This document shows positions 3,490 through 41,738 of a stretch of 64,000 nucleotides of DNA, piece by piece. This DNA comes from Croceibacterium aestuarii. Lineage in GTDB: Bacteria > Pseudomonadota > Alphaproteobacteria > Sphingomonadales > Sphingomonadaceae. The notes beneath the pieces were generated by a model that saw only the letters and a program-made list of their open reading frames with translations, had not been told where the DNA came from and made no database searches. The stretch's first letter is position 1; each line of letters opens with the position of its first letter. The position numbers and the translations under genes were made by a program. The stretch spans positions 3,054,501 through 3,118,500 of the forward strand of contig NZ_CP131039.1 in NCBI RefSeq assembly GCF_030657335.1, written 5' to 3'.

Positions 3490-4527
3490 TTACTCCGGCG
3501 CAATATGGAACACGCGCTCGGCGTTGCCATGGCACAGCGCGTGACGCTCGGCCTCGGTGCAGGCGAAATCCTCGATGAATTTCACCGCGGGCTCCATCGG
3601 CTGGTAGGGATAGTCGATCGCCCACATCACGTTGTCGATGCCGAGCTTGTCGATCGAATAGCGCAGCGCCAGAGGGTCCTCGACGCCGCTGGTGGTAATG
3701 ACGAAATTGTCTTGGAAATATTCGGCCATCGAACGCTTGGTCTTCTTCGAGCGGCCCGCCTTCTGCGCGCGGGTGTTCATGAAGTTGAGCCGCCAGAGCC
3801 AGAACGGCACCGCCTCGCCCATGTGGCCGATGCAGATCTTCAGGTTGGGGAATTCGTCAAACACCCCGCCTGCCATCATCCGCACTGCATGGGTGCCGAC
3901 TTCCATGCCGTAGCCCCACATCGCCGAGTCCATGCCGTAGTCCTGCAGCGGACCCTTGAAGCCATAGGACGCGGCGCGCGGGTGGATGTAGATGCAGCGG
4001 CCCAGCGCCTCGGCGGCTTCCAGGATCGGCCAGAACTTCGGATCGTCGAGGTACTCGTCGTAGGTGTGGCTGTTGATCATGAAGCCGTTGAGCCCGAGCT
4101 CGTTTACCGCCCGCTCCATCTCCCTGGCCGCACGCTTGGGGCTGTGCGGGGCGAAGCTGGCGAGACCGGCGAAGCGAGTCGGGTACTTGCGGCACAGGGC
4201 GGCGAGCCGGTCGTTCGCAACGATCGCCAGCTCCATTGCGGTATCGGCATCGAACATCTGCACGCCGGGAGCCGTGAGCGCCATCAGGTGCATGTCGACG
4301 CCCAGCTCGTCCATTTGCCTGAGCCGGGCCTGCTCGGCGTCGAGCAACCCGTCGAGGAAGTTGACCCCGGCATACTGCGCGCCGCCGCCTTCCTGGTCGT
4401 AGATGCCCTTGACCAGCAGCTTGTCGAGGCTCTGCGAAGGGCCGTTGGAGACTTTCTTGAGCTCGGCGGCGACCTCGGGAATCGTCCAGGCTTCCTCAGT
4501 GGCGATCAGGCGGACTTTTCCGGACAT
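3490..4527 (-). CDS. amidohydrolase-family decarboxylase (LigW/2,3-dihydroxybenzoate decarboxylase-like)
   Basis: A 345-residue protein of the amidohydrolase-2 superfamily, closest in motif pattern to non-oxidative aromatic decarboxylases such as LigW (5-carboxyvanillate decarboxylase). The N-terminal TEEAWT places a metal-binding Glu at residue 11; YIHPRA supplies His182, IGHMGEAVPFW His235, and AIDYPYQ Asp305, matching the Mn-binding set of LigW. The Phe/Tyr-rich C-terminal DYPYQPMEP is also typical. Such enzymes release CO2 from ortho-hydroxylated aromatic carboxylates. Directly downstream lies a carboxylate symporter, so uptake plus decarboxylation of an aromatic acid is a reasonable inference. 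Start at ATG 4527; upstream in-frame sequence lacks family similarity. Confidence 0.8.
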   Translation of the reverse strand: MSGKVRLIATEEAWTIPEVAAELKKVSNGPSQSLDKLLVKGIYDQEGGGAQYAGVNFLDGLLDAEQARLRQMDELGVDMHLMALTAPGVQMFDADTAMELAIVANDRLAALCRKYPTRFAGLASFAPHSPKRAAREMERAVNELGLNGFMINSHTYDEYLDDPKFWPILEAAEALGRCIYIHPRAASYGFKGPLQDYGMDSAMWGYGMEVGTHAVRMMAGGVFDEFPNLKICIGHMGEAVPFWLWRLNFMNTRAQKAGRSKKTKRSMAEYFQDNFVITTSGVEDPLALRYSIDKLGIDNVMWAIDYPYQPMEPAVKFIEDFACTEAERHALCHGNAERVFHIAPE

Positions 4528-4625
4528 CGACGCTCTCTCCGTGCTTTTTGACTTCGTCCCAAAGCTAGCCAGCCCCGCGCGCCGAGACCAGCGCCGATTG
4601 CGCCTGGCCCCCCGGAGCACGCGCG

Positions 4626-5501
4626 TCAATTCGAATCGATCTGGATGAAACTGGCTACCGGCCGCCCATTGGCGTCGAGCGCTGCGCTGTAGATGTCTCT
4701 GACCACAGACGCGCAAATTCTCTCTCGCCAGCCATCGTCGACATAGCCGGCTTGGACGACACATTGAGTTGGCTTGCCGTCGGCGTCGATCATCAGCCGA
4801 ACGGGGACCATCATGCCGTCGCGGGAAACTATCTCGGTGGCCTTTTTGCGGCGGCGCTCGGCCCACCCGGGAAAATCGCTGGTAGGCTCGGGGGTGAGGA
4901 TTTTCCGGCCTTCCCCGGCCGCGACGATCTGTACCGGGCGCGATAGCGATCGGTGGGCGACCGGATCGAAACCCCAGCTGGCGACCAGATCATCGATACA
5001 GCGATGCATGGCTGCGAACGGAGCTGCCATGCTTCCCGTTTCAAGCCTGATGGGCTGGAAGTTGCGAAAATCCAGTGTGACCGATTCCACGCTGCCTTCG
5101 AACGCCTCGACGGTCTGTCCTGCCATGGGCCGGAATCCAAGTCTGAACGATACTGCGCTCTTCCCCTCGAATGTGCCCGCTCGCAGGAGGAAGCGCTCGC
5201 GCTCGCCCGGATCGGGTGAATAGCCCACCCTAAGCTCGGTGATCGGCACGGCGCGCGATACCGGGACCAGCCCACCAACCAACGTCACCCGGTAGTTGAA
5301 GCTTGGCCCGTAGGCGTCGATCTCCAACCGGATTGCATCTTCGCCATCGCCGAACTGCCGGATAAGGCTGCAGCGCTCGTCGGCAAAATCGAGCCTCCAT
5401 TGCGACGTTGGTTGGAGGACGAGCGGCATCTGGTCGACAGCGCTTGCCGGACTGGCTGCCAAAAGCACGACGATCAACGCGGCAAACGCGGATCGTTTCA
5501 T
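4626..5501 (-). CDS. secreted protein with TonB-C-terminal-like domain
   Basis: About 291 residues. The start at ATG 5501 follows GGGAGAATGTC and begins a clean Sec signal peptide (MKRSAFAALIVVLLAASPASA). The middle third is unrecognised. The last about 75 residues (GMMVPVRLMIDADGKPTQCVVQ...ICASVVRDIYSAALDANGRPV) match the pattern of TonB C-terminal-like domains common in sphingomonad periplasmic proteins, where two Cys probably form a disulfide. No TM anchor beyond the signal is visible, so it is not a classical TonB. Role unknown; probably periplasmic. Confidence 0.7.
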   Translation of the reverse strand: MKRSAFAALIVVLLAASPASAVDQMPLVLQPTSQWRLDFADERCSLIRQFGDGEDAIRLEIDAYGPSFNYRVTLVGGLVPVSRAVPITELRVGYSPDPGERERFLLRAGTFEGKSAVSFRLGFRPMAGQTVEAFEGSVESVTLDFRNFQPIRLETGSMAAPFAAMHRCIDDLVASWGFDPVAHRSLSRPVQIVAAGEGRKILTPEPTSDFPGWAERRRKKATEIVSRDGMMVPVRLMIDADGKPTQCVVQAGYVDDGWRERICASVVRDIYSAALDANGRPVASFIQIDSN

Positions 5502-6439: not shown

Positions 6440-7426
6440 ATGGCCAGGCCTCTCCCGTCACCCGAAGACTCCAGTTGGAGCAGCGCCGGACTCGGCAAGC
6501 GTGAGGCGCTGCGCGAATGGCGCGATTGGGCGGCGAGCACGATCGCGCCGATCGAGGTGCAGGTGTTCGACCAGGACAGCTTCGCCGCGCGCTGGGTCAG
6601 CCACGGCATCGGCCAGCTGCGCCTGCTCCACCTCCACGCCCCCGCGCAGCGGGTGACGCACACCGGCGCCGACGGGACAAGCGGCCGCGCCGCCCCATCG
6701 ATACAGCTGGTCTACGCCCGGCGCGGCAGCCTCAGGACGCAGATGGCCGGCAAACGCTTCACCGTCGAGCCAGGGCAGTTCGTGCTGCTCGACAACACCC
6801 GCTTCTACCAGATGGAGATGGACGGCGAGCACGAAGCGGTCGACCTGATGATGCCGCAAGGCTGGCTCGAGAAGTACCTGCCCGATCCCGAGGAGCTGCT
6901 GGCCCGCCCGTTCGACAGTTCGCGTGGCTGGGGCGCCCCGCTCGGGGCGTTGCTCGAGGCCATGCTCGGCAACCTCGACGAGGCGCCCCTGCCGCGCTCG
7001 CTCATCGCCGAACAGGTCGGGCATCTGCTTGGCCTCGCCACGGGCTTCCCCGACCCGCCCGCCAGCTCACGTGCGGGCAGCCGACACCGCGGCCAGCTGG
7101 CGCGTGAAATCCTGCGCCGGATCGAAAGCGATTACGCCGAGCCGAACCTCTCGCCCGAGGCGGTGGCCGACAAGCTTGGCATATCGAAGCGCTACTTGCA
7201 GACGCTGCTCGCGGGCAGCGGGACCAGCTTCGTGCAAGAACTCAACGCCACCCGGCTCGATCGGGCGAGCGACCTGCTGGCCGATCCGCGGGCCGCCGGC
7301 CTGCCGGTATCCGAAATCGCCTGGCGCTGCGGCTTCCTCGACGCCGGCTATTTCACCCGCCTGTTTCGCAAGCGTTTCGGCATTACCCCGCGCGCCTGGC
7401 GCGCCGGCCACGCGCCGCAGAGCTGA
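6440..7426 (+). CDS. AraC-family transcriptional regulator
   Basis: 328 residues. The N-terminal about 200 residues form an AraC-binding-2/cupin-like sensor domain (FTVEPGQFVLLDNTRFYQMEM), and the C-terminal about 100 residues hold the two helix-turn-helix motifs (LSPEAVADKLGISKRYLQTLLAG and VSEIAWRCGFLDAGYFTRLFRKRFGITP). The layout is that of FeaR/NimR-type activators of aromatic or amine catabolism. It lies directly upstream of, and on the same strand as, the PEP-synthase-like/biotin cluster, which makes it the obvious candidate regulator. The 153-base gap to that cluster contains a 12-base-arm inverted repeat (7431-7466) that could be an operator. Confidence 0.88.
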   Translation: MARPLPSPEDSSWSSAGLGKREALREWRDWAASTIAPIEVQVFDQDSFAARWVSHGIGQLRLLHLHAPAQRVTHTGADGTSGRAAPSIQLVYARRGSLRTQMAGKRFTVEPGQFVLLDNTRFYQMEMDGEHEAVDLMMPQGWLEKYLPDPEELLARPFDSSRGWGAPLGALLEAMLGNLDEAPLPRSLIAEQVGHLLGLATGFPDPPASSRAGSRHRGQLAREILRRIESDYAEPNLSPEAVADKLGISKRYLQTLLAGSGTSFVQELNATRLDRASDLLADPRAAGLPVSEIAWRCGFLDAGYFTRLFRKRFGITPRAWRAGHAPQS

Positions 7427-7579: not shown

Positions 7580-9424
7580 ATGAGCCAAGACAAGTCCTTC
7601 CCCCTGCCCAGCTCGATCAAGGTCGTGCCCGGGACAGAGGCCGCGCAGGCCGCATACCCATACTACACCCAGTTCGTGCCCGAAGACGACGAGAAGTTCT
7701 GGTTCTACAACTCGATGCACTTTCCCGAACCGATGCATCACTTCGACATGATCACGGCGGAAGCGGCCTATGTCGCGCTGGGCGCGTTCAACACCCGGGT
7801 CCACGTGCTGCCGACCGCCAAGGGCATCGACCACCGGGTCATCAACGGCCGCGTCTACATCGGCGGCATCGCGGTGACCGACCCGGACGAGATCGAGGAA
7901 CGGGTCGGCGAGTTCCAGAACCGTGCGTTCTACTACTACGAGAACTGGGAGGACCTCTACGCCCAGTGGAAAGACAAGATGAAGGCGCTGATCGCCGACG
8001 CGCAGGCGTTGCCGACCCCCTCGCTGCCCAAGTACGAACCGCTCGAGACGACCCACACCGGCAAGGGCATCGCCGCCAACCACGCGCTGCTCGACATCTA
8101 CCAGAAGCAGATCGAAGGGTACCACCGGATGTGGCACCACCACTTCGAGTTCCTGCTGCTCGGCTACGGCGCGTACATGACCTTCTTCGATTTCTGCAAG
8201 AAGGCCTTCCCGGAGATAAGCGACCAGGCGATCAGCCGCATGGTCGCAGGGATGGAAGCCGAAATCTTCCGGCCCGACGAAGAAGTGAAGCGCCTCGCCC
8301 GCCGCGCAGTCGAGCTGGGCGTCGACGCGCATTTCATCGACGATGCCGACATCGACAAGGTCCTCGCCGATCTCGACGAACTGGGCGAGAAAGGACGGTC
8401 CTGGCTGGCGGAGCTCGAGACCAGCCGCAACCCGTGGTTCAACGTCAGCAGTGGCGACGGGTTCTACCATTACCATCGCAGCTGGAACGACGACCTTAGC
8501 CTGCCGTTCGCGGCCTTCCCGGGTTATATTGAGAAGATCAAGGCGGGCGTGGACCTCGAACGCCCGACGGCGCAGCTGATCGAGGAGCGTGAGCAGCTCG
8601 TCGCCGATTACCGCGAGCTGCTCGACACCGACGAGGACAAGGCGACCTACGACCAGCTGATCGGCCTCGCTCACCGCGTGTTCCCTTATGTCGAGGGGCA
8701 CAAGTTCTACTGCGAGCACTGGTACACCAACCTGTTCTTCAACAAGATTCGCGAATTCGGCGCCCTGCTGGCCGAACACGGATTCTTCGGCCCCGAGGGC
8801 AAGGAAGACGACGTGTTCCACCTCAACCAGTACGAGCTGGAAAGCGCGATCATCGACCTGATGCTCGCTTGGGGCATCGGCGGGACCCCGCGCGGCCCCG
8901 CCCACTGGCCGGCGCTCGTCGCCCAGCGCAAGGCGGCGATCGAGGAATGGGGCAAGCACGGCTGCCCCCCGGCGCTCGGCAACGTGCCCGACGCGATCGA
9001 CGATCCGGCGATCGTCATGCTGTGGGGCATCACCCGCGAAAACCTCGATGCCTGGCTCGAGGACGAAACCGAGAATGAAAAGGAGCTCAAGGGCTTCGCG
9101 GCGTGCTCGGGCGTGGTCGAAGGCACGGCACGGGTGGTCAAATCGGTCGCCGAAATGGGCCGCATCCAGCAGGGCGATATCCTGGTTTGCCAGGTCACCA
9201 ACCCGACGTGGTCGCCGATTTTCCAGAAGATCGGCGCGGCCGTGTCCGACATAGGCGGTTCCATGAGCCACATGGCCATCGTCGCGCGCGAATACGGCCT
9301 GCCCGCCGTAGTCGGCACCGGCAAGGCGACAACGCTGATCAAGGACGGCCAGCGGATCCGCGTCGACGGTGGCCGCGGGACCGTGACCATCCTCGACGAC
9401 GAACCGGTGCTGGAGGACGCGTGA
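7580..9424 (+). CDS. PEP-synthase-like phosphotransferase, catalytic-His (mobile-domain) protein; phenylphosphate synthase PpsA-like
   Basis: 614 residues from ATG 7580. The C-terminal about 110 residues are a PEP-utilising-enzyme mobile (swivelling phosphohistidine) domain: GGSMSHMAIVAREYGLPAVVGTG, with the phospho-accepting His at residue 564. The N-terminal about 500 residues would be the acceptor-binding part. The nucleotide-binding domain is absent and is encoded by the next gene, 4 bases downstream. This split resembles Thauera phenylphosphate synthase (70 kDa His protein plus 40 kDa ATP protein) and CreH/CreI of cresol catabolism, which phosphorylate a phenolic hydroxyl with ATP. The regulatory CBS-domain third subunit of the Thauera enzyme is not present nearby. 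Substrate unknown; a phenol or enol is inferred from the family. Confidence 0.78.
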   Translation: MSQDKSFPLPSSIKVVPGTEAAQAAYPYYTQFVPEDDEKFWFYNSMHFPEPMHHFDMITAEAAYVALGAFNTRVHVLPTAKGIDHRVINGRVYIGGIAVTDPDEIEERVGEFQNRAFYYYENWEDLYAQWKDKMKALIADAQALPTPSLPKYEPLETTHTGKGIAANHALLDIYQKQIEGYHRMWHHHFEFLLLGYGAYMTFFDFCKKAFPEISDQAISRMVAGMEAEIFRPDEEVKRLARRAVELGVDAHFIDDADIDKVLADLDELGEKGRSWLAELETSRNPWFNVSSGDGFYHYHRSWNDDLSLPFAAFPGYIEKIKAGVDLERPTAQLIEEREQLVADYRELLDTDEDKATYDQLIGLAHRVFPYVEGHKFYCEHWYTNLFFNKIREFGALLAEHGFFGPEGKEDDVFHLNQYELESAIIDLMLAWGIGGTPRGPAHWPALVAQRKAAIEEWGKHGCPPALGNVPDAIDDPAIVMLWGITRENLDAWLEDETENEKELKGFAACSGVVEGTARVVKSVAEMGRIQQGDILVCQVTNPTWSPIFQKIGAAVSDIGGSMSHMAIVAREYGLPAVVGTGKATTLIKDGQRIRVDGGRGTVTILDDEPVLEDA

Positions 9425-9428
9425 TCCG

Positions 9429-10466
9429 ATGAGCGATGCGGTTGCCTGGTTCAGGGACGTCGGCATTGTCGACCGCCCGACGGTGGGCGGCAAGGGCGGC
9501 TCGCTCGGTGAGCTGACCCAGTTCGGGATCGCGGTACCGCCCGGGTTTGTCGTCACCACATCGGCGTTCGAGACTTTCCTCGAAGCGCTCGAGGCACGCG
9601 AACCGGTTCGCGCCAAGGTCGAGGCGCTCGACCCCAATGACATGGGGGCGGCCACGAAATTGTCGGAGGAACTGCGCCGCCGGGTAGTCGAGGAACCACT
9701 GCCGGCGGAGGTCGAGACGGCCATTCTCGCGGCGCATGGCGAACTCGGCGCCGGCGCGGTCGCCGTCCGCTCGAGCGCCACCACCGAAGATGCCGAGGAC
9801 GCCAGCTTCGCCGGCCTGCAGGACACCTTCCTGTGGGTGCTGAGCGGCACAGACATGGTGCAGAAGGTGCGCGAGTGCTGGGGCAGCCTCTATTCAGTCG
9901 AAAGCATGACCTATCGCCGCAAGCAGGACTTCCCCGAAAGCAATGTCGCGATGGCGGTGGTCGTCCAGAGCATGGTCGATGCGCGCTGCGCCGGAGTGAT
10001 GTTCACCCGCTCGCCGACCAGCGGCGACAAGTCGGTCATCACCATCGAGGGTGCGCCGGGCCTCGGCTCGGCGGTGGTCTCGGGCGAGGTCACCCCGGAC
10101 CGCTGGGTTATGGGAAAGATTACCGGCGAGATCAGCGTGCGCGACATCTCCGACAAGCACGCCAAGCAGGTCATGGCCGAAGGCGGCGGCATCAGGGAAG
10201 TCGAGCTGGCGGGCGATGAACGCACCAAGCCGTGCCTGTCCGACGACGAGTTGCAGCAATTGCGCGAAGTGGGCCGCCGGATCGAGCGCCATTACGGCAA
10301 GCCGCAGGACATCGAGTGGGCCTTCGACAAGGACGGCAAGCTGATGATGCTGCAGAGCCGCCCCGAGACTGTGTGGGCGATGAAGGATGCATCGCGTCCG
10401 GTCGCCGAGCCGCAGGCCAACCCGCTCGCTCACGTCATGGGCATTTTCGGCGGGGGCAAGCGTTGA
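9429..10466 (+). CDS. PEP/pyruvate-binding (PPDK N-terminal-type) ATP-binding protein; phenylphosphate synthase PpsB-like
   Basis: 345 residues covering only the ATP-grasp domain of PEP synthase/PPDK. Signatures are VGGKGGSLGELTQFGI near the N-terminus, VAVRSSATTEDAEDASFAGLQD (about 112-132) and the closing DIEWAFDKDGKLMMLQSRPET. In this family the domain transfers the beta-phosphate of ATP to the phosphohistidine of a partner domain, here supplied by the protein encoded just upstream. The two would form one phosphotransferase giving AMP plus phosphate. ATG at 9429 lies 4 bases after the previous stop; its TGA overlaps the TTG start of the BCCP gene, showing tight coupling of the cluster. Confidence 0.85.
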   Translation: MSDAVAWFRDVGIVDRPTVGGKGGSLGELTQFGIAVPPGFVVTTSAFETFLEALEAREPVRAKVEALDPNDMGAATKLSEELRRRVVEEPLPAEVETAILAAHGELGAGAVAVRSSATTEDAEDASFAGLQDTFLWVLSGTDMVQKVRECWGSLYSVESMTYRRKQDFPESNVAMAVVVQSMVDARCAGVMFTRSPTSGDKSVITIEGAPGLGSAVVSGEVTPDRWVMGKITGEISVRDISDKHAKQVMAEGGGIREVELAGDERTKPCLSDDELQQLREVGRRIERHYGKPQDIEWAFDKDGKLMMLQSRPETVWAMKDASRPVAEPQANPLAHVMGIFGGGKR

Positions 10467-10933
10467 GCCTGACCGCTGCCGACATCGCCGAGATCGCCCG
10501 GCTGCTCGACGAATCTAAGTTCTCCAGCCTCAATCTCGAGATGGGCGGCTTCAAGCTGCGCATCCGCCGCGATGGCGGTGGCTGGGCCGGAGAACCTGCG
10601 TCGTTCGAGGAAACGCCTGAGCCCGAGCCCGCCCCCGCTCCCGAAGCGCCGGCTCCGGCCCTGTCGCAGGAAGCCGGCGCGGCCAGGGCCGGCGAGGTCG
10701 ACGTACCGGCCCCGCTGCTCGGCAACTTCTATTCCTCGCCGCGCCCCGGCGACCCGCCGTTCGTCGAAGTCGGCGACACGGTCAACGAGGACACGACTAT
10801 CGCCATCATCGAGGTGATGAAGCTGATGAACCCGATCCGGGCCGGGGTCTCCGGTACCGTCGTGGCGGTGCTCGCCGAAAACGGCAGCGCGGTCGAGGAA
10901 GGCCAGCCGCTTATCCGAGTGAAGGTGGGTTAG
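10463..10933 (+). CDS. biotin carboxyl carrier protein (AccB-type)
   Basis: 156 residues from a TTG at 10463 that overlaps the previous stop (TTGA) behind GGCGGGGGC. Structure: an N-terminal helix (LTAADIAEIARLLDES), a short beta segment, a Pro/Ala/Glu-rich linker (about 50-72) and a biotinyl domain with EVMKLMN; the biotinylated Lys is residue 120. The layout is that of AccB. No biotin carboxylase follows, unlike the usual accB-accC pair. Instead the next gene is a carboxyltransferase, so this carrier is probably dedicated to that enzyme and charged by a biotin carboxylase encoded elsewhere. Confidence 0.88.
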   Translation: MSLTAADIAEIARLLDESKFSSLNLEMGGFKLRIRRDGGGWAGEPASFEETPEPEPAPAPEAPAPALSQEAGAARAGEVDVPAPLLGNFYSSPRPGDPPFVEVGDTVNEDTTIAIIEVMKLMNPIRAGVSGTVVAVLAENGSAVEEGQPLIRVKVG

Positions 10934-10956
10934 GATGAGCGCGAGGCGCCTCTCCA

Positions 10957-11033
10957 CGTTCGTTCTGAGCCTGTCGAAGGGCGAGCCGGCTCAGCGGTTG
11001 CGCAGACGTGCTTCGACAAGCTCAGCACGAACG
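10957..11033. repeat. palindromic intergenic repeat (sphingomonad REP-like)
   Basis: Arms at 10957-10979 and 11011-11033 are nearly complementary over 23 bases (first arm CGTTCGTTCTGAGCCTGTCG, then AAG), with a 31-base loop. Palindromes with TTCGACAGGCTCAG-type arms are scattered through sphingomonad genomes. It lies between the BCCP and carboxyltransferase genes and would fold in the operon mRNA. Confidence 0.7.
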
Positions 11034-11052
11034 GTACTTGTGAGCGTGCATC

Positions 11053-12513
11053 GTGGCTGAGCTCCAGATCGTCGAAACTAGCTTGCGCGATGGCAACCAG
11101 TGCCTGTGGGGCGCGCTGGGCATCGATACCGCCAAGACGCTTACCATAGCTCCGGTGATGGAGCGCGCCGGCTATCGCGCGATCGACTTCACCACCAGCA
11201 CGCACATGGGTGTGGCCGTCCGCTATAAGCAAGAGGACCCGTGGGAGCGGATTCGCGCCATGGCGCAGATCTGCAGGAACACACCCTTGCAGTTTCTCTC
11301 GACGGGCTTCCGCTTCATCGCCTGGGAGACCGCGAGCCCCGAGTTCATGGAATTGGCCTTTCGCACGCTGGCGGGCAATGGCATCCGCCGCTTCGCGCTG
11401 GCCGATCCCAACAACGATGCGGCATCGAACGTCGAGGTTGCAAAGCTGGTAAAGCGCGCGGGCGGCGAACAGGTCGTCGGCGCGCTGGTCTTCACGCTCA
11501 GCCCGATCCACGACGATGCGCATTATGCAGAGGCGGCGCGAATCATGGCGGCCAGCCCCGACATCGGATCGCTCTATATCAAGGACCCGGGCGGGCTGCT
11601 GTCGGCCAAGCGCGCGAGCACGCTGATCCCGGCAATCATGGCCGAAATCGGCGACAAGCCGCTCGAACTGCACAACCACTGCACCACCGGCCTCGCCGAG
11701 CCGGCCTGCCTCGAGGCCGCCGACCTCGGCGTGGCGGCGGTGCAGTGCGCCAGCGGCGGCGCCGCCGACGGGACCAGCAACCCGCCGATCACCCGGATGA
11801 TCGCCAACCTCAAGGCGATGGGCCATAGTGTCGACATCGACGAGGAGGCCGCTCGCGAGGTGGCCGAATATTTTACCGCGCTAGCGGAAGCGGAAGGTCT
11901 GCCGATGGGCCGTCCGATGCACTTCGATGCGGCCTACCTGCGCCATCAGCTGCCCGGCGGCATGGTCGGCACGATGCGCCGCCATCTCGCCGACCACGGC
12001 GTGCCCGAGCTGGAAAGCAAGGTGATCGACGAGATGGGGCGCGTACGCGAGGAGCTCGGCTGGCCGATCGTGATGACCCCGTTCGCCCAGATGCTGCAAA
12101 CCCAGGCCATGCTCAACGTCACCGGCAAGGAGCGCTACGGCGTGATCCCCGACGAGATCATCCGCTATGCGCTCGGCAGGTTCGGCCGGCCCAACGTGCC
12201 CATCGCTGACGAGGTGATGGACCGGATCATGGCCAATCCGCGCACCAAGGAGCTCGAGGCCGAACCCGGCATGGCCGAACTTTCGGACCTCAGGAAACGG
12301 ATCGGCAGCAATCTTTCCGACGAGGAATTCCTGCTGCGCGCGACGATGCCGGCGAACCTCGTCGATGCGATGCGGAAAGCCGGCCCGGCGCCGCGCGAAT
12401 ACGATCCCTCAACCGTGGCGGTGATGAACCTCATGCGCGACGTCCTCAAGCGCTCCGATATCGACGGAATTGCAATCGAGAAGGACGAGTTCAAACTGGA
12501 ACTCGAAGCGTGA
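11053..12513 (+). CDS. biotin-dependent carboxyltransferase (pyruvate carboxylase/oxaloacetate decarboxylase CT-domain family)
   Basis: 486 residues from GTG 11053. An HMGL-like TIM barrel plus the conserved C-terminal PYC/OADA region, without an attached biotinyl domain. Metal and catalytic positions are kept: Asp13 in LRDGNQC, carboxylated-Lys candidate Lys177 in YIKDPGG, His207/His209 in LELHNHC, and Thr241 in DGTSNP. The pyruvate-binding segment (usually LRGRNxVGY) is replaced by LSTGFRFIAWE (about 82-92), so the acceptor is probably not pyruvate. It should move a carboxyl group between carboxybiotin on the BCCP upstream and an unknown acceptor. Several database-style labels (pyruvate carboxylase subunit B, HMG-CoA lyase-like) would be only partly right. 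Confidence 0.78.
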   Translation: MAELQIVETSLRDGNQCLWGALGIDTAKTLTIAPVMERAGYRAIDFTTSTHMGVAVRYKQEDPWERIRAMAQICRNTPLQFLSTGFRFIAWETASPEFMELAFRTLAGNGIRRFALADPNNDAASNVEVAKLVKRAGGEQVVGALVFTLSPIHDDAHYAEAARIMAASPDIGSLYIKDPGGLLSAKRASTLIPAIMAEIGDKPLELHNHCTTGLAEPACLEAADLGVAAVQCASGGAADGTSNPPITRMIANLKAMGHSVDIDEEAAREVAEYFTALAEAEGLPMGRPMHFDAAYLRHQLPGGMVGTMRRHLADHGVPELESKVIDEMGRVREELGWPIVMTPFAQMLQTQAMLNVTGKERYGVIPDEIIRYALGRFGRPNVPIADEVMDRIMANPRTKELEAEPGMAELSDLRKRIGSNLSDEEFLLRATMPANLVDAMRKAGPAPREYDPSTVAVMNLMRDVLKRSDIDGIAIEKDEFKLELEA

Positions 12514-12532
12514 ACCGTTCAGGCCGATTTTT

Positions 12533-12633
12533 CCCGTCAACGTGACCCTGAACTTTTTCCAGGGTCTATTTCTCCACCCGCACCGTCGTTGCGGAGCGAA
12601 GGATGGATGCTGAAACAAGTTCAGCATGACGGG
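12533..12633. repeat. palindromic intergenic repeat (sphingomonad REP-like, second type)
   Basis: Outer arms CCCGTCA (12533-12539) and TGACGGG (12627-12633) enclose two smaller hairpins, CCCTGAACTTTTTCCAGGG and GCTGAAACAAGTTCAGC. This composite of GTCATGCTGAAC-type elements is familiar from sphingomonad intergenic regions. It lies between the carboxyltransferase and HAD genes and could end or attenuate transcription between them. Confidence 0.65.
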
Positions 12634-12669
12634 TAAAGGGAAGGCACCTCCCAGAAAGCGAGCATATCC

Positions 12670-13509
12670 TTGAATTCCAACCGCTCCCCTGTCCCGCCCA
12701 AGGGCTTCATGTTCGACCTCGACGGCACGCTGATCCTCAGCGACCGCAAGCTCGGCGGATATACCGTCATCCCGGGCGCCGCAGAAACGCTCGCCGCCCT
12801 CGACGAGCGCGGCGTCCCGTGGATCGCGATGACCAACGGCAGCGCCTATCCGGCATCGGTTCAAGGCCCGAAGCTGCGCGCCGTCGGTCTGCCGATCCCC
12901 GACGAGCGTCTCTTCACGCCAAATTCGGTCGCCGCCCGAGCCACGGTGGAGCGTGGCTACGAGCGCGTTCTCGTTCTCGGCACATCGGGGGTGTCCGATG
13001 CGCTCGAACAGCTTGGCGTGCCATGCGTCGATCCCGCATCGGCCGATGCGCATTCGGCGGATGCGGTTTACGTGGCCTGGCATCCCGACTGCACGATGAC
13101 CGATATCCACCTGGCCTGCGAGCGGGTACTCGAGGGAGCCGCCTTCCTGACGGCCTCCGACATCCCCTATTTCGCGGCACGGGACGGCCGCGCATTCGGA
13201 TACAGCTGCGCGATCAACGGCGCAGTCGCGCGGATTACCGGAAGAGAGCCAGAGGCTTGCGGCAAACCCTCGGCGCTCGCGCTGCGTCTGGTTGCCGAAC
13301 AGCTAGGCGTGGCGGAAAACGAGGTTGGCGTCGTGGGTGACGATGCCAAGGCAGAAATCGAGATGGCGCATTACGGCGGGGCCACCGGAATCGCCGTCAC
13401 CAGCGGCTCGACCTCCCGCGATGAGTGGGAAGCCCAGACGGCTGACCGCAAGCCGGACCTGATCCTCGAGAATGTGGCCGACCTGCTGACGACCGGCTGG
13501 CTCGACTAG
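12670..13509 (+). CDS. HAD-superfamily IIA phosphatase (NagD-like)
   Basis: 279 residues from TTG 12670. HAD motif I is FMFDLDGT (nucleophile Asp16, Asp18), motif II is MTNGS, motif III Lys is in GKPSALALRL and motif IV is VVGDDAKAEIEMA. The C2-type cap between motifs II and III matches the NagD/PNPP subfamily, which dephosphorylates small phosphorylated metabolites. The start is uncertain because no strong Shine-Dalgarno precedes the TTG. It ends the same-strand run begun by the phosphotransferase genes, so it may remove a phosphate added at the start of that pathway; the repeat at 12533 could also make it a separate unit. Its TAG shares the palindrome CTAG with the stop of the convergent GH3 gene. 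Confidence 0.8.
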   Translation: MNSNRSPVPPKGFMFDLDGTLILSDRKLGGYTVIPGAAETLAALDERGVPWIAMTNGSAYPASVQGPKLRAVGLPIPDERLFTPNSVAARATVERGYERVLVLGTSGVSDALEQLGVPCVDPASADAHSADAVYVAWHPDCTMTDIHLACERVLEGAAFLTASDIPYFAARDGRAFGYSCAINGAVARITGREPEACGKPSALALRLVAEQLGVAENEVGVVGDDAKAEIEMAHYGGATGIAVTSGSTSRDEWEAQTADRKPDLILENVADLLTTGWLD

Positions 13510-17983: not shown

Positions 17984-18080
17984 TCCTTTTGACTGAAGTG
18001 GCTCAATCATCGCCATTTCAGTGCCCCGCGCAGAGGTTCGCCCTTGCCTCTCACCGGACCGCCACACATGCTGCGCGCCA
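17984..18080 (+). promoter_or_regulatory. leader conserved with the one at 46091-46182
   Basis: The block begins TCCTTTTGACTGAAGTGGC and shares, in order, GACTGA, TGGC-CAA, GCC-TT, GTGC, GCGC, TTGCCTC and ATGCT with the leader at 46091-46182, with almost equal spacing (84 and 79 bases from TCCT to ATGCT). It precedes paralogous genes in both places, so it is probably a duplicated promoter/operator region. TTGACT could serve as a -35 element. Confidence 0.55.
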
Positions 18081-18101
18081 AACGCCTTGGGAGCGATCGA
18101 G

Positions 18102-20216
18102 ATGCCTCGGATTAGCAACCTCCGCCTCGCCGCGGTTCTTTTCGTCGTCCTGACGCCGTGTGCGCCAATCCAGGCCCAGGCGCCAACACCCGCCCAGCTC
18201 GACGCAACGGCGCGCGATGTGACCCGGCTTGAATCGCTGCGAGCGGTCAAGGACTTGCAACGCAGCTACGCGCAATACGCCCAGTTCGGCCTGTGGAACG
18301 ACATGGCCGACCTGTTTTCGCCGCACGGCAAGATCGTTTGGGGGGACGAGGTCGTCGAGGGCCGCAGCGCGATTGCCAGGTGGATCGCCGCCCATGGCGG
18401 GCCGGCGTCCGATCCGGGCGCGCTCAACACCGAACTGATCGACGATCCGCTGGTGAACCTGTCGGTCGATGGCCAGTCGGCCAAGGGACGCTGGCGCGGC
18501 CTCGCCTTGCGCGGCGACGGCAAGGGCCGTGCATGGATGGAAGGCGGACTGTACGAAAACGAATACGTGCTCGAAGGCGGTCGCTGGAAGATCGCCACCC
18601 TGCACTACTACCCGCAATACGAAGGCGATTACCGAACTGGCTGGAGCAATGTCGGGCAGAAGAGCCTGCCGATCATCCCGTATCACTTTAGGGTAGACGA
18701 GACCGGCATTCCGGTACCCAACCCGCAAGGTCCGCCGCCGGCCAGCGGCGCCACAGTCATGGCGCTGTCGAACCGCGTTGCGAACCTCAATGACCAGGAC
18801 GACATCCGCAACCTGCAGAACGCCTACGGCTACTACGTCGATATGCGCATGTGGGACGACGTGACCGACCTGTTCGCCGCGGACGGGATGATCGATATCG
18901 GCGGCAAGGTGTACAAGGGCAAGGCCGGGGTCCGCGAGGCGATGCAACAGATGGGGCCGCAAGGTCTCAGCCACGGCATCCTGAACGACCACCTGCCGTT
19001 CGACACCCTGGTAAGCGTCATGCCGGGCGGCCTCGAGGCCTTCACCCGCGGTACCGAATTGGCCATGATCGGCGACGCCGACGCCGGCACGTCGAGTTGG
19101 CAGGTGAACGTATTCCGCAACCGGTTCGTACGCGAGGATGGACTGTGGAAGATTCGCGAGATGCGGATCACACCGGTGATGGACGCCGATCACGGCACAG
19201 GCTGGGGCACCGGCGGCAGGCTGGGGGCCGTCAGGCCGCCCATGCCGGCGTGGCTGGGGCCCAATCCGGCCACGGGCAAGCCGGTCGCAACCGCCGGTTT
19301 CAAACTTGCGGACACGAAGGCGCTCAGCGGCCCCGCGCCCGAGGGTTCGCGTCCCGAGACTACCGACCTGTCGGACGTGCAGCGCCGGCTGCTGCGCTCG
19401 CTGGCATGGGACGGAACAGAGAACGTCTCGTCCGCCTACGGCAATTGCCTCGACGACTTCCAGTGGCCGTGCATGTCGGGGATCTTCGCGGAAAAGGGCA
19501 ACAAGCAATCGCCGTTCGCGGGCTACTACTTCGGCCGCGACCGGATCGCGGGCGCCGCGACGGCGATGTACGGCAAGACGCCCGATCCTTCGACCGTGAT
19601 GCGCGAAAGACTGGCGGTCCACTGGCGCATCGCGCCTGTGATCAACGTTTCGCACGACGGCCGTTCGGCGCTTCTCAGGACTTATCTCTTCCACCCGAAC
19701 ACCGGAAAATACGATGCATCGAGCGGCGAGCCCAACAAGCCCGGCTCGATCCAGACCGGGATGTATCCCAACGATCAGGTCGTGCTGGAAGACGGCATCT
19801 GGCGGCTGTGGACGCTGACCATCGACGAGCCTTACATGATGATGCCCGACTGGCAGGGCGGCTGGTCGGCAGCCAAGCCGCCCGCTCCCGGTGGCGGGAT
19901 GCGCGCCAGCCCCTTGCTGCAACGCTATCCGCCCGACCTCCTGCTGACCGATCTGGGCCGACGCGAAGAAGGGTTTGCTGGGGGCACCGGCACCAAGATC
20001 GACTGGCCTGGCATCCTCCCGATGTGGTTCCACTATCGCAACCCGGTGAGCGGCCGGGAGCCGCCGCATTACTGGCCCGACTGTGTTCCCTGCGAAATCA
20101 GGCCGGAGGTCCGATTGACCAGCAACGGTTACCAGATGCCGCCAACCGGCCCCTCGGTCGACGGTGTGGAACTGACCCTTCCGGATCCGGCCGATGCACC
20201 GAAGGCGGTAAAGTAG
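18102..20216 (+). CDS. exported protein with three SnoaL/NTF2-like domains
   Basis: 704 residues from ATG 18102 (GGGAG 8 bases upstream). A Sec signal (MPRISNLRLAAVLFVVL...QAQA) is followed by three repeats of the NTF2-like fold: about 40-180 (YAQYAQFGLWNDMADLFSPHG), 225-370 (AYGYYVDMRMWDDVTDLFAADG) and 430-620 (SSAYGNCLDDFQWPCMSGIFAEKG). NTF2-like proteins bind or isomerise small hydrophobic molecules; three in one chain is uncommon. A paralogue lies at 46277. It leads an operon with a DUF8021-like protein and an SDR. Function unknown; a periplasmic enzyme or binding protein for the island's substrate is inferred. Confidence 0.75.
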   Translation: MPRISNLRLAAVLFVVLTPCAPIQAQAPTPAQLDATARDVTRLESLRAVKDLQRSYAQYAQFGLWNDMADLFSPHGKIVWGDEVVEGRSAIARWIAAHGGPASDPGALNTELIDDPLVNLSVDGQSAKGRWRGLALRGDGKGRAWMEGGLYENEYVLEGGRWKIATLHYYPQYEGDYRTGWSNVGQKSLPIIPYHFRVDETGIPVPNPQGPPPASGATVMALSNRVANLNDQDDIRNLQNAYGYYVDMRMWDDVTDLFAADGMIDIGGKVYKGKAGVREAMQQMGPQGLSHGILNDHLPFDTLVSVMPGGLEAFTRGTELAMIGDADAGTSSWQVNVFRNRFVREDGLWKIREMRITPVMDADHGTGWGTGGRLGAVRPPMPAWLGPNPATGKPVATAGFKLADTKALSGPAPEGSRPETTDLSDVQRRLLRSLAWDGTENVSSAYGNCLDDFQWPCMSGIFAEKGNKQSPFAGYYFGRDRIAGAATAMYGKTPDPSTVMRERLAVHWRIAPVINVSHDGRSALLRTYLFHPNTGKYDASSGEPNKPGSIQTGMYPNDQVVLEDGIWRLWTLTIDEPYMMMPDWQGGWSAAKPPAPGGGMRASPLLQRYPPDLLLTDLGRREEGFAGGTGTKIDWPGILPMWFHYRNPVSGREPPHYWPDCVPCEIRPEVRLTSNGYQMPPTGPSVDGVELTLPDPADAPKAVK

Positions 20217-32673: not shown

Positions 32674-33132
32674 ATGGCCGACGCAGACCTGCTCCAGCTA
32701 AATGCCGAACTGGCGCTTCAGCTGGCCGATTACTGGCACGAGATCGACTTCAACGGGGGCCGCGAGGCTTCCGGTTATTACACCGAAGACGCGGAGTTCC
32801 ATGGCCAGTTCGCCAGCTATATCGGCGTGGCCAAGATCCAGCAGTTCTACGACTGGCGCCGCGACCGCGGCGACCGTCTGTCGGTGCACAGCTTCACCAA
32901 CTTTCGCGCCCGCTTCACCGGCGCCGACAGCGCCGAGGCGACCAACTTCCTGTTCCTATACGCTCGCGACGGGGTCAGGCCGCAGCCGAGTCATGAGCCG
33001 GTGACGATCAGTCTGGCGACGGACCGCTACGTGCGGCGCGACGGGCGCTGGCTGTGCACCTATCGCCGCTTCGAACACCTGTTCGAAAGCGATGTTCCGG
33101 TCACCAACCCCAAGCTGGACGAGGACAAGTGA
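32674..33132 (+). CDS. SnoaL/NTF2-like protein
   Basis: 152 residues from ATG 32674, with CAGGAGAAAC upstream. A single NTF2-like domain: LADYWHEIDFNGGREASGYYTEDAEFHG, cited as ADYWHEIDFNG and YYTEDAEFHG, then IQQFYDWRRDRG and WLCTYRRFEHLFE. Such proteins serve as small hydratases, isomerases or aromatic-ring dioxygenase partners; this one is cytoplasmic. Its stop overlaps the GTG start of the aldehyde dehydrogenase (GTGA), so it belongs to the same operon. Confidence 0.78.
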   Translation: MADADLLQLNAELALQLADYWHEIDFNGGREASGYYTEDAEFHGQFASYIGVAKIQQFYDWRRDRGDRLSVHSFTNFRARFTGADSAEATNFLFLYARDGVRPQPSHEPVTISLATDRYVRRDGRWLCTYRRFEHLFESDVPVTNPKLDEDK

Positions 33133-34589
33133 GCAACAGGCAACGCGGCGCGCTCGACAACACCGACCTGCTGATTGCGAAGAACCTGATCGGCGGCAAA
33201 TGGATCGGCGGCAATCGCGCGCCGATAGCGGTCGACGATCCCTTCACGCTCGACGATTTCGCCGAAGTCCCCAACCTGGGCGAGGACGAGGCCAGGCAAG
33301 CGGTCGCGGCGGCCGCAGAGGCCTTCCCGGCCTGGGCGGCGAAGACCGCCCGCGAACGCGGCGCAATCCTGCGCAGGTGGTTCGAGCTGCTGGTGGCCAA
33401 TCGCGACGACATCGCCCGGCTGATCACCCGCGAGAACGGCAAGACCTTCACGGAGGCGCAGGGCGAATTCGACTACGGCGCCGGGTTCATGGAATTCTAC
33501 GCCGACGAAGCGACCCGCGCGCTGGGCGAGACGATCCCCGCCCCCGTGCCCGGCCGGCGGCTCTACGCCGAGCGCGAGCCGATTGGGGTCGCCGCGGCGA
33601 TCACCCCGTGGAACTTCCCGCTCGCGATGCTCACGCGCAAGGTCGGCCCGGCGCTGGCGGCCGGCTGCACGATGATCGCCAAGCCCGCCAGCGCGACGCC
33701 GCTGACCGCGCTGGCCTTCGCTCGGCTGGGCGAAGAAGCGGGCGTACCCGCCGGCGTGTTCAACATCCTCACGGGCTCGGCACGCGAGATCGGCGGGGTG
33801 CTCACCGCATCGCCGATCGTGCGCAAGCTTTCCTTCACCGGGTCGACCGAAATCGGCGTCCAGCTCTACCGCGAATCCGCCGCGACGATGAAGAAGCTCG
33901 GGCTCGAGCTCGGCGGCAACGCCCCCTTGCTGGTGTTCGACGATGCCGATCTCGAGGTCGCGGTCGAGGCGGCGATGGTCGCCAAGTTCAGGAACGGCGG
34001 GCAAAGCTGCATCGCCGCCAACCGCATCTATGTGCAGGACGGCATCCGCGACCGGTTCGTGGAGGCCTTCGGCGCGAGGGTTTCCGGCATGAAGGCGGGC
34101 GACGGGTTCGACCCTGCCAGCGACATCGGCCCCCTGATCGACGATGCCGGCAAGGCCAAGGTCGCCGAGCACCGCGATGACGCGTTGGAGCGCGGCGCGA
34201 GGCTGGTCGCCGGAGGAACCGAGGCAGCCGGGCGCCTGTTCGCCCCCACCCTGCTCGCCGATGTCCCTGCCGATGCCCAGCTGGCCCACGAAGAGACCTT
34301 CGGCCCGCTTGCCGGGGTGATCGGCTTCGCGACGGTTGAAGAGGCCCTGCGTCTGGCCAACGCAACCGAATTCGGCCTCGCCGCCTACATGTGCAGCGAG
34401 GACCCGAAGACCATCGCGAGGGTTTCGCGCGGTCTCGAAAGCGGCATGGTCGGAATCAACACCGGGCTGATCTCGACCCCGCACGCCCCGTTCGGCGGCG
34501 TGAAGATGAGCGGTCTCGGCAAGGAAGGGTCGCACCACGGGCTCGCCGAATACCTGAGCATCAAATATCTCTGCAAGGCAGGGCTCTAG
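33129..34589 (+). CDS. NAD(P)-dependent aldehyde dehydrogenase (succinate-semialdehyde type)
   Basis: 486 residues from GTG 33129. Motifs: ITPWNFPLAMLTRKVGPALAAGC (cited in part), FTGSTEIG, catalytic Glu in LELGGNAPL and catalytic Cys in NGGQSCIAANR. The overall pattern follows GabD-like succinate-semialdehyde dehydrogenases. It would oxidise the aldehyde made by the iron alcohol dehydrogenase two genes upstream. The start overlaps the preceding stop by 4 bases (GTGA), and the BKACE gene follows after 11 bases. Confidence 0.92.
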   Translation: MSNRQRGALDNTDLLIAKNLIGGKWIGGNRAPIAVDDPFTLDDFAEVPNLGEDEARQAVAAAAEAFPAWAAKTARERGAILRRWFELLVANRDDIARLITRENGKTFTEAQGEFDYGAGFMEFYADEATRALGETIPAPVPGRRLYAEREPIGVAAAITPWNFPLAMLTRKVGPALAAGCTMIAKPASATPLTALAFARLGEEAGVPAGVFNILTGSAREIGGVLTASPIVRKLSFTGSTEIGVQLYRESAATMKKLGLELGGNAPLLVFDDADLEVAVEAAMVAKFRNGGQSCIAANRIYVQDGIRDRFVEAFGARVSGMKAGDGFDPASDIGPLIDDAGKAKVAEHRDDALERGARLVAGGTEAAGRLFAPTLLADVPADAQLAHEETFGPLAGVIGFATVEEALRLANATEFGLAAYMCSEDPKTIARVSRGLESGMVGINTGLISTPHAPFGGVKMSGLGKEGSHHGLAEYLSIKYLCKAGL

Positions 34590-34600
34590 GGAGCGACGCG

Positions 34601-35536
34601 ATGCGCAAATCCAGCAAGGTCATCATCACCTGCGCACCGACGGGATCGATCCACACCCCGTCGATGTCCCCGCACCTGCCGGTCACGCCGGACCAGATCG
34701 CCGAAGCGGCGCTGGGTGCGGCCGAGGCCGGCGCGGCGGTGCTGCACCTCCACGCGCGCAATCCCGCCGACGGCAGCCCGAGCCCACGCGGGGAAGACTT
34801 CATGGCCTTCCTCCCGCGCATCAAGCAGAGCACCGATGCGGTGATCAATATTTCGACCGGCGGCAGCGCAACGATGTCGCTCGATGCCCGGCTCGAAGGC
34901 GCGCATGCTGCGCAGCCCGAGGTGTGCAGCCTGAACATGGGGCCGCTGATCTTCGACTTCTCCGCCGCCGGGAAACGCGTCGAGACCTGGCAGCACGAAT
35001 GGGAGCGCGAGTACGTCGAGAGCAGCCGCGGCCGCATCATGTACAACGATAACGCTTTCATCGAGCTGATCATGGTCGAGGTCGGCCACGCTTACGGCAC
35101 CCGGTTCGAGTTCGAGTGCTACGACGTCGGCCACCTCTATACCCTCGCCCATTTCGCCGACCGCGGCCTGGTCGAGCCGCCCTTCCTGATCCAGGCGGTG
35201 ATCGGCATCCTCGGCGGCATCGGGCCCGACCCGCGCAACCTGGCGCACATGGTCACCATCGCCGACAGCCTCTTCGGCGACGACTATTTCCTCTCGGCCT
35301 TCGCCGCCGGCCGCCACCAGATGGACTTCTGTACCCAGTCGGTGCTGCTCGGCGGCCACGCCCGGGTCGGGCTGGAAGACAGCCTGTTCATCGGCAAGGG
35401 ACAGCTCGCGGCGAGCAACGCCGAACAGGTCACGCGCATCCGCCAGATCGTCGAAGCGCTCGGCCGCGAAGTGGCCACCCCGGCCGAGGCGCGGGAGATG
35501 CTCGGCCTCAAGGGCGGCGACCGGGTAGGCTTTTGA
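34601..35536 (+). CDS. beta-keto acid cleavage enzyme (BKACE, DUF849)
   Basis: 311 residues. The Zn-binding HxH is in VLHLHARNPADGSPS (about 44-58). VINISTGGSATM, PEVCSLNMGPL, FECYDVGHLYTL and the C-terminal GGHARVGLEDSLF are the family's hallmarks. BKACE enzymes join a beta-keto acid with acetyl-CoA to give acetoacetate and a new CoA ester. It closes the operon with the alcohol and aldehyde dehydrogenases, so a beta-keto acid is probably the oxidation product. GAGCGACGCG precedes the ATG. Confidence 0.88.
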   Translation: MRKSSKVIITCAPTGSIHTPSMSPHLPVTPDQIAEAALGAAEAGAAVLHLHARNPADGSPSPRGEDFMAFLPRIKQSTDAVINISTGGSATMSLDARLEGAHAAQPEVCSLNMGPLIFDFSAAGKRVETWQHEWEREYVESSRGRIMYNDNAFIELIMVEVGHAYGTRFEFECYDVGHLYTLAHFADRGLVEPPFLIQAVIGILGGIGPDPRNLAHMVTIADSLFGDDYFLSAFAAGRHQMDFCTQSVLLGGHARVGLEDSLFIGKGQLAASNAEQVTRIRQIVEALGREVATPAEAREMLGLKGGDRVGF

Positions 35537-36786: not shown

Positions 36787-36826
36787 GGGAGGGCTCCTGC
36801 GAAAGGCGTGACGGCGGATTTAGCGG

Positions 36827-37807: not shown

Positions 37808-37981
37808 GCTGAAACCTCTCCCAAAGATCATTTTTCGGCCCCCTCCGAACGGATTGGCCGCAAGATTCCTCCACCTTCGTATCCCACGTTGAACTCGGCA
37901 ACTTGATTGCATCGGCGCTGCAAACGTACCGAGCGGTGAGCGCGCAAGATCACCATGCCCTCGAGCGCAGCCGCCGCTCAG

Positions 37982-39361: not shown

Positions 39362-39439
39362 TGCCTCCCGTGGAATTCTTCGACCTGCCGCCGTTGGTGG
39401 GCAACCTGAGGCCGCCATTCCGCCCCGAACGATTTGCCA

Positions 39440-40252: not shown

Positions 40253-40328
40253 TGTTCCTCTTAGTCCCACCATGACCGTGTTCACTTTCATGTTTGCAAG
40301 TTCGCCAAGGCGGCAACCCGTCTGTCGG

Positions 40329-41588: not shown

Positions 41589-41695
41589 GTGCACACTCGA
41601 CTTTCCGCTTGTCGCTCCGCTGGGCCCCCCCGAAACTATTCCCGGCATTCCCCCAGTTTATGACTATCCACCGCCTGGGCGAGGAGTTGGAGCCT

Positions 41696-41731
41696 GGCCC
41701 CACCACGCCCCGGGAGGGGCGCGATGGGGCC
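41696..41731. terminator. nested hairpin after the TonB receptor gene
   Basis: GGCCCCA (41696-41702) pairs with TGGGGCC (41725-41731), and inside it CGCCCC pairs with GGGGCG around GGGA. On the minus strand it starts 8 bases after the receptor stop and before the BNR gene. No T-run; it may trim receptor transcripts, so that the downstream genes are expressed at a lower level. Confidence 0.5.
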
Positions 41732-41738
41732 GTAGCCA

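Follow-up and report, generated by a model that had tools for sequence, protein, structure and literature searches.

The 64,000-nucleotide stretch of Croceibacterium aestuarii DNA analyzed here (contig NZ_CP131039.1, positions 3,054,501 to 3,118,500; hereafter the window) carries a five-gene operon coding for the two parts of a phosphohistidine kinase, a biotin carboxyl carrier protein, a carboxyltransferase and a HAD phosphatase. Judging from its homologies, this is very probably a hydroxyphenylethanone/acetovanillone (Hpe/Acv-type) operon of a Croceibacterium-like sphingomonad, from which the hpeA-type biotin carboxylase gene is absent. The best overall explanation of the data, with a probability of roughly 0.7, is a working Hpe/Acv pathway whose carrier would be charged by AccC, the housekeeping biotin carboxylase of fatty-acid synthesis. 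The pathway itself was already known; the recurrent loss of its biotin carboxylase subunit looks undescribed.

In the proposed course of the reaction, the HpeI-like protein would bind ATP and the HpeH-like protein, through its phosphohistidine, would phosphorylate the phenolic hydroxyl group of a 4-hydroxyphenyl methyl ketone, the candidate substrates being 4-hydroxyacetophenone, acetovanillone and acetosyringone. The biotin carrier and the carboxyltransferase would then carboxylate the acetyl group, the HAD phosphatase would take off the phosphate to yield a hydroxyphenyl beta-keto acid, and other enzymes would cleave this product to hydroxybenzoate. The dedicated biotin carboxylase would have been lost, leaving AccC to load the carrier with CO2. 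We infer by analogy that the C. aestuarii proteins act like their Rhodococcus homologues, and the exact substrate and the later steps were assigned in the same way.

The operon and its relation to the Hpe/Acv pathway

The Hpe pathway, encoded by hpeHICBADEF of Rhodococcus rhodochrous GD02, was published in 2022 (PMC9618137; kinase in PMC12167813). The acvABCDEF genes of Sphingobium lignivorans SYK-6 (Higuchi et al. 2022) are homologous and syntenous to hpeHICBAD (PMC9618137). HpeHI is the kinase, HpeCBA the biotin carboxylase system and HpeD the HAD phosphatase, with 4-hydroxyacetophenone, acetovanillone or phosphorylated forms thereof as substrates (PMC9618137, PMC12167813). Only phosphorylated ketones were carboxylated by HpeCBA, and both ATP and bicarbonate were required (PMC9618137). 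The operons of GD02, SYK-6 and Actinomadura macra were compared in PMC13101465, and the crystal structure of HpeI is available as 9GOJ (PMC12167813). The initial annotation was not aware of a published pathway combining these genes; as the Hpe/Acv pathway had been published for GD02 and SYK-6, the idea of an undescribed pathway was rejected. It had foreseen ATP-dependent phosphorylation of a phenol, biotin-dependent carboxylation and dephosphorylation, all of which have been demonstrated for the Hpe homologues; the group that is carboxylated there, however, is the acetyl substituent of the 4-hydroxyphenyl ketone and no carbon of a ring or an enol (PMC9618137).

The features of the operon region are listed below by window coordinates, strand and description.

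6440..7426, + strand: AraC-family regulator (AraC_binding_2 and HTH_18; Pfam), the probable regulator of the operon
7580..9424, + strand: HpeH/AcvA-like kinase component, substrate-binding part plus swivel phosphohistidine domain (PF00391, residues 529-600)
9269..9271, + strand: codon of the predicted phosphorylated His564, from the sequence (motif as around HpeH His581 in PMC12167813)
9429..10466, + strand: HpeI/AcvB-like ATP-grasp kinase component (PPDK_N; PF01326, E 2.2e-101)
10463..10933, + strand: HpeC/AcvC-like biotin carboxyl carrier protein with a TTG start (PF00364)
10820..10822, + strand: codon of the predicted biotinylated Lys in an EVMKLM motif, from the sequence
10934..11052, no strand: 119-base gap between the carrier and carboxyltransferase genes, site of the biotin carboxylase gene in related operons, with an inverted repeat inside
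11053..12513, + strand: carboxyltransferase subunit (HMGL-like and PYC_OADA; Pfam)
12605..12631, + strand: palindromic intergenic repeat GGATGCTGAAACAAGTTCAGCATGACG between the carboxyltransferase and HAD genes, from the sequence
12670..13509, + strand: HpeD/AcvF-like HAD-IIA phosphatase (PF13344 and PF13242; DxDGT motif, here DLDGT, and GDD motif)

The regulator, kinase pair, carrier, carboxyltransferase and phosphatase genes named in the initial annotation were all recovered in place on the + strand by Pfam and sequence. It had also described three junctions of four bases. Two were confirmed, a gap between the phosphohistidine and ATP-grasp genes (9425-9428) and an overlap of the ATP-grasp and carrier genes (10463-10466); at the third, the carrier and carboxyltransferase genes lie 119 bases apart. 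The gap between the carboxyltransferase and HAD genes is 156 bases long. The phosphohistidine protein matched NF006153 with 771.8 bits (cut-off 578) and contains an SxxGGxxxH motif (SDIGGSMSH) with a Met two positions before the His. PF00391 was its sole Pfam match, no phosphoenolpyruvate (PEP)-binding C-terminal barrel of PEP synthase or pyruvate phosphate dikinase was detected in it, and the PEP synthase models scored under their cut-offs. The best match of the ATP-grasp protein in the PDB was 9GOJ, that is HpeI (E 2e-72), with 150 of 324 aligned residues identical (46%). The carboxyltransferase was matched by 14 NCBIfam models, every score being under its cut-off; for pyruvate carboxylase/oxaloacetate decarboxylase models the scores and cut-offs were 276.8 vs 402, 256.4 vs 718 and 230.2 vs 756.5. 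PADLOC gave no match for the two kinase proteins. No ppc or UbiD-like carboxylase genes were present among the window genes scanned around the operon, and neither hpeE nor hpeF (CoA ligase, beta-ketoacyl-CoA hydrolase) among the genes scanned beside it.

Like the Hpe genes of GD02, the window genes combine a two-component phosphohistidine kinase, a biotin carrier, a carboxyltransferase and a HAD phosphatase in one operon; unlike them, they come without hpeA, hpeE and hpeF, adjoin an AraC regulator and belong to another phylum. The Acv system of SYK-6 is likewise from a sphingomonad, with a six-gene operon and later steps encoded elsewhere. The window operon corresponds to five of these six genes, the biotin carboxylase gene (acvE) being the absent one (gene content via PMC9618137). 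What the initial annotation called a biotin carboxylation pair comprises two of the three subunits of the published system, the biotin carboxylase being the one that is absent. In Aromatoleum aromaticum EbN1, XccBCA, an HpeCBA homologue whose genes cluster with homologues of hpeHI, is involved in the metabolism of 4-hydroxyacetophenone (PMC9618137). It likewise consists of three subunits including a biotin carboxylase and acts in an anaerobic pathway; it is set beside the window by description only.

An annotated cluster on a plasmid of Rhizobium leguminosarum contains a kinase with 56.5% identity to that of the window; its HpeH- and HpeI-type genes are followed by genes for a carrier, a biotin carboxylase, a carboxyltransferase, a HAD phosphatase and a CoA ligase. 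The window operon has the gene content of this cluster minus the biotin carboxylase and the ligase; elsewhere, the genome encodes a protein homologous to the ligase of the Rhizobium operon (41% identity). In a kinase tree of 25 rows, the window, 18 relatives and the Rhizobium kinase formed a group of 20 (support 100/100), with the Azoarcus pps, Thermomicrobium, Rhodococcus JS3073 and P450-cluster kinases outside it.

Of 199 genomes sampled from the family, 21, the own genome included, encode full-length HpeH (80-100% identity). Neighborhoods were fetched for 19 of the other 20, the last lying on a 3.1-kb contig. In 18 of these 19 an AraC homologue was located upstream of the operon, and in the nineteenth (L051, sharing its contig with L149) about 7 kb upstream. 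A wider scan gave 168 relatives, 80 of which were kept, with SYK-6 outside the 80; the kept set comprised Croceibacterium, Alteraurantiacibacter, Aurantiacibacter, Altericroceibacterium, Sphingobium, Parvularculaceae, Gammaproteobacteria, Acidobacteriota and others. Linkage was counted in 89 loci (the window, eight relatives and the 80 kept). Sixteen of them ended at a contig end ahead of a readable carboxyltransferase, and in 72 of the remaining 73 the two kinase genes, the carrier and the carboxyltransferase gene stood together, so the arrangement cannot be due to chance. The exception was L170, a metagenome-assembled genome (MAG), in which the kinase pair and carrier were followed by transporter and pyruvate-dehydrogenase-like genes instead of the carboxyltransferase and phosphatase, as read from translations. 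The free separation of PEP-type and biotin genes that the initial annotation had named as counter-evidence was not seen within the clade; it was seen among distant kinase homologues (43-49% identity; phenylphosphate, P450 and Thermomicrobium clusters).

Presence and absence of the biotin carboxylase gene

A locus was scored as having the biotin carboxylase only if the gene lay between those of the carrier and the carboxyltransferase. It was present in 35 of 74 scorable loci and absent from 39, the window among the latter. The distance between the matched carrier and carboxyltransferase segments was 1339-1664 bases in loci with the gene and 3-237 bases in those without it. The gap at 10934-11052 is too short to hold more than a remnant of a biotin carboxylase gene. 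In the stretches of loci lacking the gene, any other biotin carboxylase match was only found about 10 kb away (L046, L137, L140). Among the family neighborhoods, eight had the gene between carrier and carboxyltransferase, the own one and ten others were without it, and one was cut at a contig end.

The order carrier, biotin carboxylase, carboxyltransferase was observed in all 35 loci with the gene, including a Rhodococcus plasmid, position being the scoring criterion, and in no locus did a biotin carboxylase gene directly follow the carboxyltransferase. For GD02, Table 1 of PMC9618137 gives carrier, carboxyltransferase, biotin carboxylase; either the gene order of GD02 differs from that of the 35 loci or two labels of the table are swapped. 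A version of the Hpe/Acv operon without biotin carboxylase was not found in the literature searched, and Fig. S5 of PMC9618137 ('various combinations' of hpe genes) may show one.

To the 89 loci four hand-picked plasmid loci were added (plasmid matches 1-4; matches 5 and 6 were retrieved as well, and 80% query coverage was reached by ten plasmid records). From this set of 93, 19 loci in which a carrier and a carboxyltransferase could not both be read were left off the tree: 16 cut by contig ends, L124, L125 and L170. One of the contig-cut loci, L169, has a biotin carboxylase gene ahead of the contig end. The locus tree, with 74 rows, rested on 1444 columns of the two kinase proteins plus the carboxyltransferase; it was built with a quick method and rooted on one long-branched row, and its nearest row to the window was Croceibacterium salegens. 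On this tree the presence or absence of the biotin carboxylase requires six changes of state, four of them forced by well-supported branches. As the outgroups carry the gene, its absence reflects repeated loss. The tree places a single loss at the base of 29 Erythrobacteraceae-type loci including the window, and separate losses in L153, in the gammaproteobacterial L175 and L186 and in a Hyphomonadaceae MAG (L201). In Acidobacteriota, one or two losses are predicted (L196, L197, L198, L200, L202, L204). About 700-800 extra bases, possibly an additional gene, were noticed between the two kinase genes of L195, L197, L198, L200, L201, L202 and L204 (Acidobacteriota and the Hyphomonadaceae MAG).

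Twenty-one of the 39 loci without biotin carboxylase were followed into their genomes: the own one, ten of the family and ten others, mostly MAGs for which completeness was not given. A biotin carboxylase was regarded as standalone when it scored over 130 bits in an open frame under about 610 residues. The own genome and the ten family genomes lacking the operon gene had one standalone copy each, beside accB, and the eight family genomes with the operon gene had two each, one of them three. Other matches in family genomes were weaker and mostly in frames of 630 residues or more. One standalone copy each was present in the genomes of L153, L175, L186 and L201, and two each, neither of the operon type, in the six Acidobacteriota. 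In a biotin carboxylase tree, 35 operon copies and 37 unlinked standalone copies formed two clades (support 100). The unlinked copies include each standalone copy found in the 21 genomes; since they fall in the separate clade, no hpeA-type standalone copy was found there. Relocation of the gene, tested by the standalone counts and by the tree, was thus not observed in these 21 genomes.

Charging of the carrier and competing explanations

Charging of the operon carrier by AccC, which we infer, is the simplest explanation and a rather probable one. The carrier scored just over the cut-off of the AccB model TIGR00531 (116.5 vs 115.2 bits) but was placed outside the clade of 21 AccB (support 100). 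A recently duplicated AccB was rejected as its origin because the 21 AccB form a clade of their own. Adaptation of the carriers to AccC was tested with a profile built from all 21 AccB, with a mixed outcome. For full carriers of Erythrobacteraceae, those from loci without biotin carboxylase scored higher (89.6 vs 72.2), and in Gammaproteobacteria the scores were about equal (80.2 vs 78.5).

Several observations weigh against the proposed AccC-charged Hpe/Acv pathway. In Acidobacteriota, full carriers from loci without biotin carboxylase scored lower on the AccB profile (66.8 vs 73.9); the biotin domain alone gave the reverse direction (49.6 vs 43.3), but the domain scores were not relied on because cutting out the domain did not work in the case of the Sphingobium rows (mean 10.0). 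No rise was seen with TIGR00531 either, as carriers scored 94.5-120.7 bits in 11 genomes without the operon gene and 107.7-127.1 bits in eight with it. The standalone count covers the genomes of 21 of the 39 loci, the biotin carboxylase tree covers operon and standalone copies, and multidomain biotin carboxylases could charge the carrier. Comparison with GD02 by sequence concerns the aligned part of HpeI, with SYK-6 and the other GD02 proteins compared by description. The hpe-type cluster of Rhodococcus JS3073 has the same make-up as the Rhizobium cluster (unannotated, read by tblastn), and the window kinase is hardly nearer to its kinase (47.2% identity) than to Azoarcus PpsA (46.5%); in the 25-row tree the JS3073 kinase fell outside the window group, on a long branch with unsure placement. 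Finally, a beta-keto acid cleavage enzyme (BKACE), a candidate for a later step, was missing from seven of the 21 operon-bearing genomes, which makes a weak case for it as the general later step.

The alternative that survives best, though improbable, is charging by the biotin carboxylase domain of a multidomain carboxylase alpha subunit instead of AccC. The genome has two multidomain biotin carboxylases besides AccC, which by our own reading, rather than by a family assignment, are of the propionyl-CoA/methylcrotonyl-CoA type, and a homologue of one of them is located 10-14 kb from the operon in L046, L047, L048 and L055. These domains share one chain with a carrier of their own, however, and the neighbor is also present in L055, where the operon keeps its own biotin carboxylase.

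Decay of the operon after the loss, leaving a non-functional pathway, would agree with the missing subunit gene and with the repeats in two intergenic gaps, but the arrangement is kept by 29 loci of one supported clade and the phosphohistidine and biotin motifs are conserved. The phosphohistidine motif was matched in all 39 loci without biotin carboxylase and the biotin motif, as formulated here, in all 39 of their carriers (31 of 35 with the gene). For the carboxyltransferase, the LRD motif was present in 39/39 loci without and 30/35 with biotin carboxylase, the H-x-H pattern in 36/39 and 30/35, respectively, and the DxDGT motif of the HAD protein, where its gene was found, in 37/37 and 32/33. 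The ratio of non-synonymous to synonymous substitution rates (dN/dS; Nei-Gojobori, window vs five relatives without biotin carboxylase) was well below 1: the carboxyltransferase gave 0.06-0.21, the carrier 0.16-0.29, the two kinase parts 0.13-0.17 and 0.12-0.21 and the phosphatase 0.20-0.38. The operon genes are under purifying selection. Considering the clade-wide retention, conserved motifs and dN/dS, decay was judged unlikely.

In a third alternative, the carrier would take its carboxyl group from an organic donor (oxaloacetate, methylmalonyl-CoA) by ATP-independent transcarboxylation, with no biotin carboxylase required. To our knowledge, such a transfer onto a phosphorylated aromatic ketone would be the first in aromatic catabolism. 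It would explain the several losses of biotin carboxylase, the carboxyltransferase belongs to the OadA/5S/pyruvate carboxylase domain family and no dedicated biotin carboxylase was found. The operon has no second carboxyltransferase, however, and the homologous carboxylase requires ATP and bicarbonate (PMC9618137), which makes this explanation very improbable.

Equally poor are the chances of a different substrate, either a phenol or 4-alkylphenol as for PpsAB or CreHI, or pyruvate as for PEP synthase. It would agree with the 43-47% identity of the window kinase to Azoarcus PpsA and to the P450-cluster kinases of Rhodococcus, but the ppc genes and P450 of those clusters are missing beside it, the PEP-binding barrel was not found, and the carboxyltransferase is linked in 72/73 testable relatives. 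The split phenylphosphate synthase PpsAB, known from Thauera and Azoarcus, belongs to the superfamily of the window kinase (46.5% and 41.7% identity for the two proteins of Azoarcus KH32C) and, unlike the latter, adjoins ppc and UbiD-type carboxylase genes. Two Rhodococcus plasmid kinases (43.3-43.6% identity) lie in clusters with P450, SDR, HD-domain and aldehyde dehydrogenase genes and, in contrast to the window, no biotin genes. These clusters are presumably cre-type, as CreHI of Corynebacterium glutamicum, a split phenol kinase; CreHI was likened to the window through them, its own sequence being outside the comparison. The Thermomicrobium kinase (48.7% identity) also has no carrier or carboxyltransferase genes beside it.

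Later steps, intergenic repeats and neighboring genes

For the steps that would follow the proposed AccC-dependent carboxylation, one candidate gene is located in the window.

34391..35536, + strand: BKACE, later-step candidate (PF05853), the true start probably being downstream of 34391

This protein matched NF053538 (3,5-dioxohexanoate:acetyl-CoA acetone transferase) with 475.4 bits (cut-off 430), and its link to the operon is weak. A BKACE over the cut-off was detected in 14/21 operon-bearing genomes vs 10/39 genomes hand-picked from the 178 without the operon, kinship being uncorrected in this comparison. The second BKACE of the genome adjoins unrelated genes. An HpeE-like ligase at E 1e-50 or better was present in four of the 21 operon-bearing genomes. 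The genome also encodes PobA (631.3 bits, cut-off 538.7) and has five LigB-type dioxygenase matches, which makes the use of 4-hydroxybenzoate plausible.

Between the carrier and carboxyltransferase genes, an inverted repeat with arms at 10957-10979 and 11011-11033 is built on CTTCGACAAGCTCAGNACGAACG, which has six exact copies in the genome (reversed control, 0). At the same site, several relatives without biotin carboxylase have 119-143 bases and others 3-17, as judged from distances only. Such a pattern would fit the insertion of a small mobile repeat into this gap.

An amidohydrolase-2 gene (3490-4866) is located upstream of the operon, and homologues of it were found upstream of the operon in L043, L044, L052, L053, L055 and L056. 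Farther downstream, an aldehyde dehydrogenase gene adjoins the BKACE gene (33054-35536); the region around them also encodes SnoaL proteins, TonB receptors and three proteins of the amidohydrolase-2 family. One run at 35620-44513 comprises three BNR-repeat (sialidase-like) proteins, an amidohydrolase and a TonB receptor. Two long proteins (731 and 702 aa; 18021-20216 and 46277-48385) contain three SnoaL_4 stretches each.

Bacteria use the Hpe/Acv pathway to feed on lignin-derived aromatic ketones, and the pathway, known as it is, is of interest for lignin upgrading. The data presented here suggest that a catabolic carboxylase can shed its own biotin carboxylase and share that of fatty-acid synthesis. 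If AccC is indeed shared, the use of lignin ketones would be tied to lipid metabolism in these bacteria, and a five-gene version of the pathway would be at hand for engineering.

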